Below, one piece after another: positions 16,594 through 62,465 of a stretch of DNA of 64,000 nucleotides (position 1 is the stretch's first letter; every line of letters starts with the position of its first letter). The position numbers and the translations under genes are program-made. This DNA comes from an uncultured Caulobacterales bacterium (GTDB lineage Bacteria; Pseudomonadota; Alphaproteobacteria; Caulobacterales; Maricaulaceae). The stretch is from positions 1-64,000 of the forward strand of contig CALKXY010000017.1 of assembly GCA_938003545.1 (NCBI GenBank), read 5' to 3'. Below the pieces are notes generated by a model, which saw only the letters and a program-made list of their open reading frames with translations, was not told the DNA's origin and searched no databases.

Positions 16594-17730
16594 ATGGCAA
16601 TTCCAAAGTCCGAACTAAGTTTTGAAAATGCAGTCGATTATCACTATGATAAATTTCCACCGAATGAGCTGGATTATCAAAGATTGATGAAACCTCTTGG
16701 TCGAGCAATTGATGCAATCGCAAGGTTTGATCAGATGTTAACTACATTGCACAACTCTGATATATTGCTAGCGCCATTGCGTAATCAAGAAGCCGTCATT
16801 TCTTCCAGAATGGAAGGAACTATAAGTACGATAGATGAAATACTTAAGTACGAAGCCGACCATGAAGACGGTAATTTGCACAAGGATGACGTCAGGTCTG
16901 AAATAATTGAAACTTTGTTGTATCAAAGAGCTTTGAGAGGGGCAGAGCGAGCGATTAAAGATGGGGCAAAGCTAAGCGAACATATGATTCGAAGTTTGCA
17001 CCAGGTTCTACTCTCATATGGTAGAGGTGCTCGTAAATCTCCAGGCCAACTAAAGAGCGAACAAAATTATCTTGTAGATTCTACAAAAAGAAATGTTCTG
17101 TTCGTTCCTATAAAGCCAGAGTTGTTAGATATGGGATTGAGTAATTTACTTAATTTTATCGAAAATGACGATGGTCAAATTCTAATCAAAACAGCAATAT
17201 CTCATTTGGAATTTGAGGCTTTACATCCATTCAAGGATGGGAATGGACGCGTAGGTAGAATGATTATCACTTTGATGCTTTGGAATGCTAAAGTGATTTC
17301 AGCGCCTCATTTCTATATTAGTGGATATTTAGAAGAGCGTAAGGATGAATACATTCATTTAATGAGAGAGGTCTCTAAGTCAGGAAACTGGACAGATTGG
17401 TGCGAGTTTTTCCTTAATGCAGTGGAAGCGCAAGCGATCCAAAACTTACAAGTTGCTACAGATATTTCCAAACTATATGAAGAAATGAAATCGGTTTTTA
17501 GCGAAGTGTTGTCATCGAAGTACAGTATTAACGCACTGGATTTCATTTTTGCTAATCCTGTATTTCGTAACAGTAAATTTAAATCAAATAGCGGTATCCC
17601 AGCCTCTAGTGCCACGAAATTCACTCCGCTTTTAGCAAATGCTGGATTGCTTGATGTTATTGTTCCCGCCTCTGGAAGTAGGCCTGCAATGTATAGGTTT
17701 GAGCCAATGCTGAGGTTAGTTAGGGTTTAA
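16594..17730 (+). CDS. fic: Fic-family AMP-transferase-like protein, self-inhibited class II type
   Basis: Fic proteins usually transfer AMP from ATP to Ser/Thr/Tyr of target proteins. The canonical active-site loop HPFKDGNGRVGR lies at about residue 211. The N-terminal Fic_N region contains SSRMEG near residue 70, matching the (S/T)xxxE(G/N) inhibitory helix that blocks ATP binding in class II Fics. The C-terminal 80 residues look like a winged helix. At 378 residues it resembles SoFic-type proteins. Its AT-rich composition and codon use (AAA, TTA, ATA) differ from mutL and all other neighbours, and no partner gene is adjacent, so horizontal acquisition is likely. The target is unknown; no clear Shine-Dalgarno precedes the ATG. 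Confidence 0.92.
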   Translation: MAIPKSELSFENAVDYHYDKFPPNELDYQRLMKPLGRAIDAIARFDQMLTTLHNSDILLAPLRNQEAVISSRMEGTISTIDEILKYEADHEDGNLHKDDVRSEIIETLLYQRALRGAERAIKDGAKLSEHMIRSLHQVLLSYGRGARKSPGQLKSEQNYLVDSTKRNVLFVPIKPELLDMGLSNLLNFIENDDGQILIKTAISHLEFEALHPFKDGNGRVGRMIITLMLWNAKVISAPHFYISGYLEERKDEYIHLMREVSKSGNWTDWCEFFLNAVEAQAIQNLQVATDISKLYEEMKSVFSEVLSSKYSINALDFIFANPVFRNSKFKSNSGIPASSATKFTPLLANAGLLDVIVPASGSRPAMYRFEPMLRLVRV

Positions 17731-17749
17731 GCTTATTCGGAGGTATTGG

Positions 17750-18301
17750 TTACTTAGGCCTCACCAAACCCGGTAACCCATCCAAGCTCTCTGGATTCCG
17801 ATCGTACCGATATTCGTGCCAGTCCTCGATAGTCTTAAACTCATGTGAGCGTTTGAGTTGGTCGCGTTCGCCTTTGAATTCGTAGAACGGAATGCTGTAA
17901 CCGCAGCTATCCATGACGCGCGTCAGCTTGACGGTGATGATCGCGCGGGCGCGGTCGAATTCAGGGAACCAGGCTAGTTTTTCGGCAAAGCCTTCGTCGT
18001 GAAACGCGCAGACGGAGCCTTGTCCGTAGAGCCGAACAATATTGGCTTTGCCTTCATAGGCGCAGAACATGATTGTGATGCGGCCATTTTCGACAACATG
18101 GGCGTGGGTTTCGATCCCTGATCCACCGTAATCTAAATAGGCGACTGTCGTTGAGTCGATGATTTTAAAGCTGTCATAGCCCTTGGGCGAGACGTTCACG
18201 TGACCATCAGGCGAGAGCGGGGCGGTGGCGACAAAGAACATCTTTTGCGCCATGATAAAGGCGGTGAGTTTGTCGTTTAGTTCGTCATATGTTTTGCCCA
18301 T
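17750..18301 (-). CDS. Pyridoxamine 5'-phosphate oxidase-like FMN-binding protein
   Basis: The 183-residue product belongs to the PNPOx-like split-barrel family. Features are FFVATAPLSPDGHVNVSPKG and YLDYGGSGIETHAHV near the N terminus, typical of the subfamily that binds FMN or a similar cofactor, and a C-terminal YRYDRNPESLDGLPGL segment. It is not the vitamin B6 enzyme PdxH itself. The substrate is unknown. The gene lies 18 bases after rsmD and is probably the last gene of an rluB-rsmD unit. Confidence 0.85.
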   Translation of the reverse strand: MGKTYDELNDKLTAFIMAQKMFFVATAPLSPDGHVNVSPKGYDSFKIIDSTTVAYLDYGGSGIETHAHVVENGRITIMFCAYEGKANIVRLYGQGSVCAFHDEGFAEKLAWFPEFDRARAIITVKLTRVMDSCGYSIPFYEFKGERDQLKRSHEFKTIEDWHEYRYDRNPESLDGLPGLVRPK

Positions 18302-20410: not shown

Positions 20411-21402
20411 AGCTGAACCTACGTGAAACTCTGTCGGGTCCAACATTGTCGGATGAAACCGAAGCGTCAGGCGCGGCATGGGTCGGGATTATTCTCGGTA
20501 CGCTCGCGGCTGTGCTTTATTCTCTGAAAGCGGTCTTTGTGAAGTTAGCCTATCTGCCGACGGATGCTGTGGTCGAGCAAGTTCCACCGATTACGCTCAT
20601 GATGTTACGCTTGGGGTTCTCATTTCCGATCTATTTGGCGATCTTGATCTGGGCGTGGCGGCGCGCGGCTGTGAAACCTAATTCGCGTCAAGTCAGCTTA
20701 GCGATGTTGGCGGGTGTTTTGTCCTATTATATCTGCACATTGTTGGATTTTTCTGGCCTGCAATATATCACGGCGCAGTTGGAACGGCTGTTGTTATTCA
20801 CCTATCCCGCTTTCGTTATTTTATTTGGAGCCTTATTTTTTGGCGGGCAGCTGACACGGTGGGGTATTGCCTCTGTTGCATTGGCCTATGCAGGACTCGC
20901 TGTTGTTTTTCTGGGCGGCGACATCACAGAAAGCTCAAACCTTTGGCTGGGCAGCGGGTTGGTGCTTGTATCGGCGATGTTATTTGCTTTGTTCCAGCTG
21001 ATCGCCAAAGGGTTCATTGACCGTATAGGCCCGCAGATGTTTACCTGCCTTGCGATGCTGGGGGCAGCGACAGCGATATTCTTACACTTCATCATAAGCG
21101 CGGTTAGGTCGGAAGGCATAGCTGCGGCGTTGGATTTACCGACGCATATTTATTGGATCGGGCTTATCATCGCAGTGTTTTCAACGTTGCTGCCTAGTTT
21201 TTTTATGAATATCGCTATCGGACGCCTTGGCGCGCAGAAAGTCGCAATGCTCGGCATGTTTGGACCATTGGCGACAATTGTGGCGGCCATTATTGTTCTG
21301 GGGGAACCGTTTGGTCTGTGGGATGCTGTTGGTACTGTTGTGACTTTTTCTGGGATCGCGCTCTATATGAAGTCCAGCAAAGCTAAGCCGCGCCAGACGT
21401 AA
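20407..21402 (+). CDS. EamA/DMT-family transporter
   Basis: The 331-residue inner-membrane protein has about ten hydrophobic segments arranged as two EamA repeats, typical of drug/metabolite transporters (e.g. SFPIYLAILIWAW, YITAQLERLLLFTYPAFVIL). The second repeat ends PLATIVAAIIVLGEPFG, a common DMT signature. The substrate is unknown. The start overlaps tadA by four bases (ATGA), and the 3' end overlaps the convergent permease gene by 40 bases. Confidence 0.87.
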   Translation: MKLNLRETLSGPTLSDETEASGAAWVGIILGTLAAVLYSLKAVFVKLAYLPTDAVVEQVPPITLMMLRLGFSFPIYLAILIWAWRRAAVKPNSRQVSLAMLAGVLSYYICTLLDFSGLQYITAQLERLLLFTYPAFVILFGALFFGGQLTRWGIASVALAYAGLAVVFLGGDITESSNLWLGSGLVLVSAMLFALFQLIAKGFIDRIGPQMFTCLAMLGAATAIFLHFIISAVRSEGIAAALDLPTHIYWIGLIIAVFSTLLPSFFMNIAIGRLGAQKVAMLGMFGPLATIVAAIIVLGEPFGLWDAVGTVVTFSGIALYMKSSKAKPRQT

Positions 21403-22112
21403 ATCGTGCCGACGATTGTCACGAGGATGCGGGTGTATTTGCGAAAGCCCACGTCAGAGAACCGTTCCAGCATCATTGTGCCGAGCTTTGTTCCTAAAAT
21501 AACGGCGGGGAGTGCGGCGGCTAATACCCAGAGAGGAGGGAGGTCTCCTAGCCCGTCTGTGCGGAGCAACGAAATGCCAAAATATCCAATTTTAACGAGA
21601 TGGCTTGCGAACATGGTTACGGCTTTGGTCGCCACGATAGCTTTACGCGTTAGCGTCGTTTTGACGTAGAAAAAGTCTAAGGCCGGTCCCGCGACACCTG
21701 CGCTTAGGTTCAGGCTCATAACCATTGCGCCGCAGAGAGCTGCATGAGCAGGCTTTTCCGCATCGCCTGCCAGCCATGATCGAGGTAACCACAGTAAGAG
21801 GGGCAACAGGCCTAGCGCGAGGAAGAGTTGTGCTTTGTCAGGTGTAAATGCAGCCCAAAGCATAAGCGCAATCGCTGGCGCAGCGCCGAGGAGCTGCCAA
21901 CCCAAAATATCCCATCTAATATGACGCCGCAATATTGTTGAGCGCGATCCATTAGATACGGACTGTACAATGCCGTGCACAACCATAGCGGCGTTCACGC
22001 TCATCAGGCTGGCAATGATGCCCATAAAGACAAGGCCGCCCGCCATACCGAATAATCCGGAGATAAAGGCACATACGCCTGCGGCCACAATGATTAACAA
22101 ACCTATCTGCAT
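21363..22112 (-). CDS. TSUP (TauE/SafE) family permease
   Basis: This 249-residue membrane protein has about eight hydrophobic segments and the TSUP features GLFGMAGG near the N terminus and PAVILGTKLGTMM near the C terminus. Family members export sulfite, sulfonates or other anions; the substrate here is unknown. Its start codon directly abuts a TTAA-N7-TTAAC box that more likely serves the divergent coiled-coil gene. Confidence 0.85.
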   Translation of the reverse strand: MQIGLLIIVAAGVCAFISGLFGMAGGLVFMGIIASLMSVNAAMVVHGIVQSVSNGSRSTILRRHIRWDILGWQLLGAAPAIALMLWAAFTPDKAQLFLALGLLPLLLWLPRSWLAGDAEKPAHAALCGAMVMSLNLSAGVAGPALDFFYVKTTLTRKAIVATKAVTMFASHLVKIGYFGISLLRTDGLGDLPPLWVLAAALPAVILGTKLGTMMLERFSDVGFRKYTRILVTIVGTIYVWRGLALLDFI

Positions 22113-22128
22113 TTAAGAGACCGTTAAC
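22113..22128 (+). promoter_or_regulatory. Perfect CtrA-type box (TTAA-N7-TTAAC)
   Basis: TTAAGAGACCGTTAAC matches the full-length binding consensus of the alphaproteobacterial cell-cycle regulator CtrA. It lies 79-94 bases upstream of the coiled-coil gene, in the 94-base gap to the divergent TSUP gene. By chance one TTAA-N7-TTAA is expected in about 65 kb at even base composition, so position rather than sequence alone supports it. Confidence 0.45.
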
Positions 22129-22206
22129 CACGACATAGTTACCAAAACCTTATGTGGAGTCTCCCGGGCTGGGCGATTCGTGAGATCGGGTAAAAGGGTG
22201 GCAAAG

Positions 22207-23361
22207 ATGCGCTTATTCAAAAAAGATGCACCTCAATTTGGCGCGGATGACGTGAAAGCAACACAAGACGTTGTGCAGGCGATCACCGCAGCGTTGAAAA
22301 CGGGGGCAGAGCAGCAGGATATTGCTGCCAAACGTTTAGGGTCTCTGACAAAGGCGATGGGCAAGATGGACGCGAATGTGCGCCAAGCCGCCCGCCTACA
22401 GGTCGAGACAGAGCGTTTGGACGGCGAAGTAAAAACATTACGTGCCGATTTGGATAAAAAACGTGCGTGGGCACAAGAGCAGTCTTCGAAACTCGCAAAC
22501 GTCCAAAAAGAGCGCGATAAGCTGCGCAATGAACTGGAAAGCGCCAAGTCAGAAATCTCCGCACGTACAGAGCGTGAAGCTGGATTGCGTGAGGCGGAAG
22601 TGAAGTTAACACGCGAGGCTGATAGTCTAACCCGCGAATTGAACCAGCGTACAGACCGTTTGGAAGACTTGGTCCTGACGCAACAACGTCTCCAAGACGA
22701 GCTTGCACAAGCCAATGGTCTGGTTTCGTCCAGCACACATAAAACACGCGAGTTGCAAAATGCAGTCGAAGAATTGACGCTGCGTTTAGATGAAAAGGTC
22801 AAGGCTGCTGATGCGTCATTGTCCGCTTTGCGTGATCTACGTTTGGATCATCATGCGGTGAAAGAGCAATTCGTTTCCGCTAGCTCGCGTTTGCAGTCTG
22901 CAGAATATGAGCAGTCTAGTCAAAAATCTCTATTTGAAGATACCCTCAAACGCCGGGCGGATGAAATTCTTGCTCTGAAAACGCAGGTCGAACAGCTCAC
23001 AACTCAACTTCGTATCAAAGATACAATGGGTAGTCATTTTGACGAGGAGACGGCGGGACTACGTCAGGCGCTAGAAACGGAACGTGAGCGCAATTCTGTC
23101 AATGAGCAACGCTTGCGCAATCAAGCCGAGACGGAAGCCCGTCAATCTCGCGCGCTGGGACAATCAAAGTCAGAATTCGACGCGCTAAATGCGAAATTTG
23201 TGGATGCGATGAAGGACTTGGACACGCTGCGTCAGGTCAATCGCGTGCAGTCGCAAAAGCTAGAAAATTATGCGCAACTTAATACTGCCCCCGCGCCGAA
23301 ACGCGATTACTCGCCTGTCATTCGAAATGATGACCCTGGTATTTTGAAGGTTGTGAAGTAG
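22207..23361 (+). CDS. Coiled-coil protein, possibly crescentin-like
   Basis: The 384-residue product is almost entirely predicted coiled coil (about residues 20-365), rich in Glu, Lys, Arg, Gln and Leu with heptad spacing, and no membrane segment or recognised enzymatic domain. It begins with a short basic head, MRLFKKDAP, which recalls the MRLLSKN head of Caulobacter crescentin that is needed for membrane attachment; this is resemblance from memory only. The start at 22207 is preferred over the GTG at 22180 because AAGGG lies about nine bases upstream. A CtrA-type box precedes it and a strong terminator follows. Other coiled-coil families (chromosome segregation, polar scaffold) cannot be excluded. 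Confidence 0.8.
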   Translation: MRLFKKDAPQFGADDVKATQDVVQAITAALKTGAEQQDIAAKRLGSLTKAMGKMDANVRQAARLQVETERLDGEVKTLRADLDKKRAWAQEQSSKLANVQKERDKLRNELESAKSEISARTEREAGLREAEVKLTREADSLTRELNQRTDRLEDLVLTQQRLQDELAQANGLVSSSTHKTRELQNAVEELTLRLDEKVKAADASLSALRDLRLDHHAVKEQFVSASSRLQSAEYEQSSQKSLFEDTLKRRADEILALKTQVEQLTTQLRIKDTMGSHFDEETAGLRQALETERERNSVNEQRLRNQAETEARQSRALGQSKSEFDALNAKFVDAMKDLDTLRQVNRVQSQKLENYAQLNTAPAPKRDYSPVIRNDDPGILKVVK

Positions 23362-23387: not shown

Positions 23388-23415
23388 AAAACCCGGCGTA
23401 ATGGCCGGGTTTTTT
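23388..23415 (+). terminator. Terminator after the coiled-coil gene, possibly bidirectional
   Basis: AAAACCCGGC and GCCGGGTTTT form a perfect 10-bp stem with a 6-base loop, followed by more Ts. Because A-runs precede the stem it may also stop the convergent LysM gene transcript. Confidence 0.9.
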
Positions 23416-23420
23416 GTATC

Positions 23421-23978
23421 TTACTTACACTCTACATCGGGTAGTTTTAGCCGCTGGCCGATATCAATGACGTTGCCGCGACCTAAGCCGTTTAAGCGAG
23501 AGATGTCCTTGACTGATGTGCAATGCTCTCGGGCAATGTCCCAGACAGTGTCGCCGCGTTGAACGATGTAAGTGTATCGTGTGTGTCTTGAGCGACGAAT
23601 GATGTCCTGGCTCTTAACTTGTGGTGAAGATGTTCGAACAAGTGATGACGATGAGGGCGAAAGGCTTTTTCTTAAAAAATAGTCTCGGCAATTGATCTCA
23701 ACTTCGGAGAGTAACTGACTGCTGCCCTCTGTGTCTTGAACGACCATGAGGCGGACTAGGTCGTTATTATCATTACCATCGATGACTTTTTTACGCATTG
23801 CGTCGGTCTCGCATATTTTTGCGGTTTCCTCAGGCGATGCCTCCATCTTAAAACTTGCCGTTTGTGTAACGACTTTGGGTTGACGTTTTTCAATTTTGAC
23901 AGTTGGAATAGATTTCGACACGGATGTGCAGCCCGCAAGCAGCGCAACGGTAATCAGCAAAGAAAGGTTCGTTTTCAT
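23421..23978 (-). CDS. LysM-domain lipoprotein
   Basis: The 185-residue protein has a lipoprotein signal peptide (ITVALLAGC, Cys17). The C-terminal 45 residues form a LysM peptidoglycan-binding domain (YIVQRGDTVWDIAREHCTSV, then GLGRGNVIDIGQRLKLP). The middle part, about 110 residues, is Ser-rich and matches nothing I recognise. It is probably anchored in the outer membrane and contacts the cell wall. Confidence 0.87.
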   Translation of the reverse strand: MKTNLSLLITVALLAGCTSVSKSIPTVKIEKRQPKVVTQTASFKMEASPEETAKICETDAMRKKVIDGNDNNDLVRLMVVQDTEGSSQLLSEVEINCRDYFLRKSLSPSSSSLVRTSSPQVKSQDIIRRSRHTRYTYIVQRGDTVWDIAREHCTSVKDISRLNGLGRGNVIDIGQRLKLPDVECK

Positions 23979-62449: not shown

Positions 62450-62465
62450 GTTAACTTCCTCTTAA
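62450..62465 (-). promoter_or_regulatory. Perfect CtrA-type box upstream of the giant gene
   Basis: On the minus strand TTAAGAGGAAGTTAAC matches TTAA-N7-TTAAC. It lies about 95 bases upstream of the giant gene's start, a distance similar to the box before the coiled-coil gene. CtrA activates or represses cell-cycle and surface-structure genes in Caulobacter relatives. No clear -10 follows, so the call rests on the box alone. Confidence 0.5.

Follow-up and report, generated by a model that had tools for sequence, protein, structure and literature searches.

Does a gene that encodes little besides a short basic head and a long coiled coil belong to the crescentin family, or does its product merely share crescentin's design? 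The gene lies in the 64,000-nucleotide stretch of Caulobacterales DNA analysed here (hereafter the window), where the initial annotation had described its product as nearly all coiled coil, crescentin-like, and standing behind a perfect CtrA-type box. Its coding region (22207-23361, forward strand) specifies 384 residues beginning MRLFKKDAPQF, in which a short basic head (MRLFKKDAP) leads into one long helix, with a brief disordered tail behind it; we refer to gene and product as the rod gene and the rod protein. The start was placed at ATG 22207, since orthologues do not conserve the in-frame extension to GTG 22180 and two of them carry a stop codon a few codons 5' of the ATG.

A rod gene at a fixed chromosomal place

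A 14-member profile (alignment A1) recovered the rod family in 39 of the 137 genomes of the window's GTDB family, distributed over 7 of its 19 genera and including Litorimonas cladophorae and Fretibacter rubidus. A scan of GTDB genomes gave L. cladophorae and uncultured 'Caulobacterales' MAGs as the close relatives of the rod protein. In a sample of 337 genomes from the class Alphaproteobacteria, searched with one genome per species so that rare distant relatives may be missed, the family was essentially absent, the sole other match being weak (E 6e-7), confined to the rod, and located in a 1.3-Mb genome of a distant family of the class (L083). For the rod protein, Pfam gave nothing significant, and the matches in NCBIfam were limited to weak ones to SMC, far under cut-off; the family is previously unnamed and has no name in either database.

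The order mutL-rsmD-rluB-tadA-eamA-(tauE)-rod gene-(lysM)-fsa-priA is kept across genera, even where the rod proteins are only ~30% identical, and the rod genes are therefore orthologues of one ancestral gene. Where the rod gene is lacking this order is usually broken, and in one such genome (G022) eamA adjoins a pepSY-fsa-priA block. Within part of a single family of stalked marine bacteria, the rod gene keeps the same position on the chromosome. It is missing from several species of the same genus, and the stalked life style therefore does not depend on it. The gene is present in Fretibacter rubidus, which reportedly buds, and absent from Algimonas porphyrae, for which binary fission is reported; the comparison involves two species only and is a lead.

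Downstream in the window, a small LysM lipoprotein-like gene (23421-23978, reverse strand) lies convergently with the rod gene, beside which it is often retained, and is a possible envelope partner of the rod protein. Between the two, an inverted repeat read from the sequence, AACCCGGC-N6-GCCGGGTT followed by a T run (23390-23415), is likely a terminator common to both genes; it was missing from the output of a consensus scanner. Farther upstream, between mutL and rsmD, an ORF named by eye as Fic-like and its neighbour (16594-18301) look like a local insertion, since they are without a match at the same place in any related locus.

Rod, head and promoter

The description of the protein as nearly all coiled coil held up well. 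AlphaFold2 returned a single helix over residues 13-342 (mean pLDDT 82) with disordered ends, and a heptad model predicted coil from residue 14 to residue 356, broken at 62 and 253. On this basis and on a comparison of 32 members we delimit a membrane-targeting-like head (residues 1-13, 22207-22245, forward strand), an uninterrupted coiled-coil rod (residues 14-356, 22246-23274, forward strand) and a tail of pLDDT <50 that ends in LKVVK (residues 357-384, with the stop codon 23275-23361, forward strand). Foldseek against the PDB gave nothing usable for the single helix, and a clear tape-measure match was absent from PHROGs.

The rod measures exactly 343 residues in 31 of the 32 members, the remaining one being shorter by exactly 7, one heptad. 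Their alignment has 343 columns, and its only gap is this seven-residue one, at a median rod identity of 38% and a minimum of ~16%; head (13-55 residues) and tail (25-50 residues) vary freely in length. The most conserved stretches, residues 241-288 and the rod end at 337-360, lie as would be expected of assembly contacts. The fixed length proves a coiled-coil constraint only, the mark of a strict coiled coil, and is suggestive of filament assembly rather than proof of it, because the SMC arms of related genomes, which do not form filaments, are likewise near-constant (330-337 residues).

The annotated basic head is present. Among 32 members, 30 have F at position 4 and 31 have K or R at position 6; position 3 is hydrophobic, and the first 8 residues carry a net charge of +1 to +3. 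This pattern resembles the bactofilin membrane-targeting peptide, experimentally proven and of consensus MFSKKKK (PMC12448750), and suggests an anchor-like function at the membrane.

Upstream of the rod gene, a CtrA-type box of the form TTAA-N7-TTAAC (TTAAGAGACCGTTAAC, 22113-22128, forward strand) ends 78 nt before the ATG and occurs once in the 2.3-Mb assembly. Its presence alone is unremarkable, because 0.62 instances of TTAAN7TTAA are expected by chance in the window, where 2 were found; TTAAN7TTAAC is not over-represented genome-wide either (27 versus 35 for the reversed control), and the case for the box therefore rests on its conservation, which is what stands out. The other perfect TTAAN7TTAAC box of the window lies at 62450-62465 on the reverse strand. 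As the initial annotation had it, the box is a perfect one, and a perfect TTAAN7TTAA recurs in 8 of 8 same-genus orthologues at -89 to -94 from the start codon, with differing 7-nt spacers. A promoter box kept in this way between species is a mark of the CtrA regulon, to which the rod gene would putatively belong. The g22 and g2 group carries a TTTATGNNTCGTTAA variant (-75 to -79); versions of the TTAAGGAAGAATTAG type are seen in the g21 clade.

Two CcrM-type methylation sites (GANTC) follow the box on the same strand, GAGTC at -50 (22157-22161), kept in 3 of 8 same-genus orthologues, and GATTC at -32 (22175-22179), kept in 7 of 8. Counted over related members, which are not independent but between whose clades the site distances differ, the box within 130 nt upstream was perfect in 12 of 31 members and within one mismatch in 24 of 31 (1.6% and 12.6%, respectively, of 310 other upstream regions), and GANTC occurred within the same distance in 27 of 31 versus 23% of other genes. 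From these sites we infer a cell-cycle timing of rod gene expression. The box directly touches the ATG of a divergent tauE-like gene (21363-22112), and could for that reason serve both genes. A sigma-70 promoter scan found nothing at the right place for the rod gene. In the same genome, a perfect box also precedes ORFs that read, by eye from their translations, as ftsZ, mraZ, a cpaB-like gene and a pilus gene.

Crescentin and other possible affinities

Of the crescentin likeness proposed in the initial annotation, the design stands (a basic hydrophobic head, an uninterrupted rod of similar length, a short tail and a cell-cycle-type promoter) and membership of the family does not. Crescentin has a positively charged N-terminal segment for membrane attachment, to which the conserved basic head would correspond, and a linker-free rod of ~364 residues with short ends, similar but not identical to the 343 residues found here. 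Its gene is under GcrA and methylation control in C. crescentus (PMC8959179; PMC3973325), with a conserved GANTC (PMC3708114), and the GANTC sites of the rod gene would suit a promoter of this GcrA/CcrM-dependent kind. The profiles PF19220 (Rod_CreS) and PF25217 (CreS_N), on the other hand, did not match the rod protein at E 1. The rod gene was not among the PF19220 matches in its own genome (G000), even at E 1, or in G013, and PF19220 passed its cut-off in none of the rod family's genomes. Genuine CreS was picked up by the same profile in 16 genomes that belong to a different family of the order (by content, Caulobacteraceae), in agreement with a 2025 survey in which crescentin is restricted to Caulobacteraceae and Hyphomicrobiales and, within Caulobacterales, is absent outside Caulobacteraceae (PMC12700997). 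No crescentin entry was among the phmmer matches of the rod protein in the PDB, and the creS loci of Caulobacter have none of the rod gene's neighbours in common. The heptad comparison that had been suggested as a check went against crescentin: applied to CreS as a control, the model placed breaks at 266 and at 397, of which the latter lies close to the stutter published for residues 406-409, and in the same model the rod protein, with predicted breaks at 62 and 253, showed no such C-terminal stutter.

Could the rod protein nevertheless be a genuine crescentin, strongly diverged, with a role in bending the cell? HHalign of 33 rod members versus 16 CreS sequences gave 75% probability over 284 columns, higher than either profile versus SMC (14% for the rod family, 13% for CreS), and some g25 members match the CreS HMM at E 8e-8; head, linker-free rod and GANTC promoter also speak for this reading. 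The rod subfamilies, however, align with CreS in many different registers, apart by up to hundreds of residues. In block-shuffle tests, none of 240 shuffles scored as high as the rod family versus CreS, but unrelated natural coiled coils also exceed shuffled nulls, and we therefore dropped this score as proof of homology; the z-score of 5.5 is hardly above that of the rod family versus SMC (4.7), and two SMC arms reach 8.9. From their sequences, the profiles of the rod family and of CreS are indistinguishable from those of two independent coiled coils. With the failure of the crescentin profiles, the lack of common gene order, the displaced predicted breaks and a similarity barely above that to SMC arms, crescentin orthology was rejected as unproven, and we consider a diverged crescentin improbable. 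The rod protein is most likely an analogue, not a demonstrated member, of crescentin, and its function may still resemble crescentin's.

A different protein fits crescentin better than the rod protein does. Encoded in two genomes (L010, 1291-2625, forward strand; and L126) from a different family within the order, it is a 445-aa coiled-coil protein with the head MNIFSRL that matches PF19220 at E 3.7e-5, collinearly over 43-353 and with a trace of CreS_N, and reaches a z-score of 10 against shuffled CreS; a perfect CtrA box lies at -97 and GANTC at -18. It is possibly a diverged crescentin outside Caulobacteraceae.

The initial annotation had itself named a best match to SMC-like families as counting against it, and formally this is what a single-sequence scan returned (NCBIfam SMC, E 1.8e-7, 29 bits), a match that is also one of generic coiled-coil similarity. 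A generic SMC- or RecN-type protein acting on the chromosome is nonetheless highly implausible: the score is far under the cut-offs of 567-729 bits, the 384-aa coiled coil has neither ATPase head domains nor a hinge, the cell's real SMC is located elsewhere (G000 contig 4), and the rod protein conserves a membrane-targeting-like head. A more serious, though still doubtful, alternative is an organiser of the pole or division site, in which a membrane-tethered coiled-coil dimer would recruit partners at pole or septum, as TipN, PodJ and DivIVA-type proteins do, without forming long filaments. The same anatomy and promoter would fit; CtrA boxes of the same genome precede division and pilus genes, and partners could bind at the LKxVK tail and the conserved end of the rod. 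Against it, the rod protein has no homology to any polar protein of Pfam or NCBIfam, and a simple recruiter needs no exact rod length.

A putative membrane-tethered scaffold and its counterparts

We favour, with a probability of about 0.5, a lineage-specific, cell-cycle-timed structural scaffold, membrane-tethered, probably filament-forming and analogous to crescentin. Two rod chains would wind into a dimeric coiled coil, whose heads (M1, L/F3 and F4 with K/R5-6) would insert into the inner membrane at its inner leaflet, in the manner of bactofilin. The constant length of the rod would fix by how much dimers overlap, such that they could pack laterally beneath the inner membrane as a filament or a sheet. 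Under the control of CtrA and GcrA/CcrM, the rod gene would be turned on in a given window of the cell cycle, and the scaffold would then direct local envelope growth at a cell curvature, a stalk or bud, or a pole. It would work like crescentin, as a probable analogue. The role in shape or polarity that had been suggested for the protein is plausible, and we regard the protein as probably filament-forming, with a putative morphogenetic role in curvature, stalk, bud or pole.

A second coiled-coil family, of 500-700 aa, occurs in the same genera (L033, 1339-3174, reverse strand; L034, 1207-2682, forward strand). It resembles the rod family in its head (MNFFKK or MRFFKK), in a rod that is alignable almost without gaps and in a CtrA-type box and GANTC upstream, and differs in a long extra head region, a C-terminus reading DYKLGLRKNIF or similar, and another locus (rplI-fabD); in Fretibacter its gene lies between rplI and fabD. 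A wider proposal, which we put forward as speculative and rather unlikely, is that Robiginitomaculaceae, which are budding and stalked marine bacteria, possess a second, independently evolved bacterial intermediate-filament-like cytoskeleton, built from two paralogous families of rods that CtrA and GcrA/CcrM would control jointly, and shaping the stalk or bud. If true, a crescentin-like rod that arose by convergence in a further stalked lineage with the same cell-cycle circuit would mean that membrane-anchored coiled-coil cytoskeletons arise repeatedly, and the rod gene would give a handle on the differences between budding and binary fission within Robiginitomaculaceae.

Among known systems, the rod of eukaryotic intermediate filaments is likewise of conserved length, set between variable head and tail and conserved at its end; PF00038 scored weakly and under cut-off in one rod member (E 5.7e-4), and the likeness is limited by the lack of linkers in the rod family and of significant homology. 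With bactofilin BacA, whose N-terminal hydrophobic peptide with two lysines reads MFSKQAKS (PMC12448750), the likeness is confined to the anchor, bactofilin being a beta-helix. Crescentin is longer (457 aa, versus 384 aa), without significant sequence homology to the rod protein and in a different gene neighbourhood; its predicted heptad break lies ~45 residues before the rod end, that of the rod protein ~103, and the CtrA box, strong at the rod gene, is at best a one-mismatch version at creS. The two proteins are alike in their short basic head, long linker-free coiled coil, short tail and GANTC promoter sites, and in having hosts within Caulobacterales in the wide sense.
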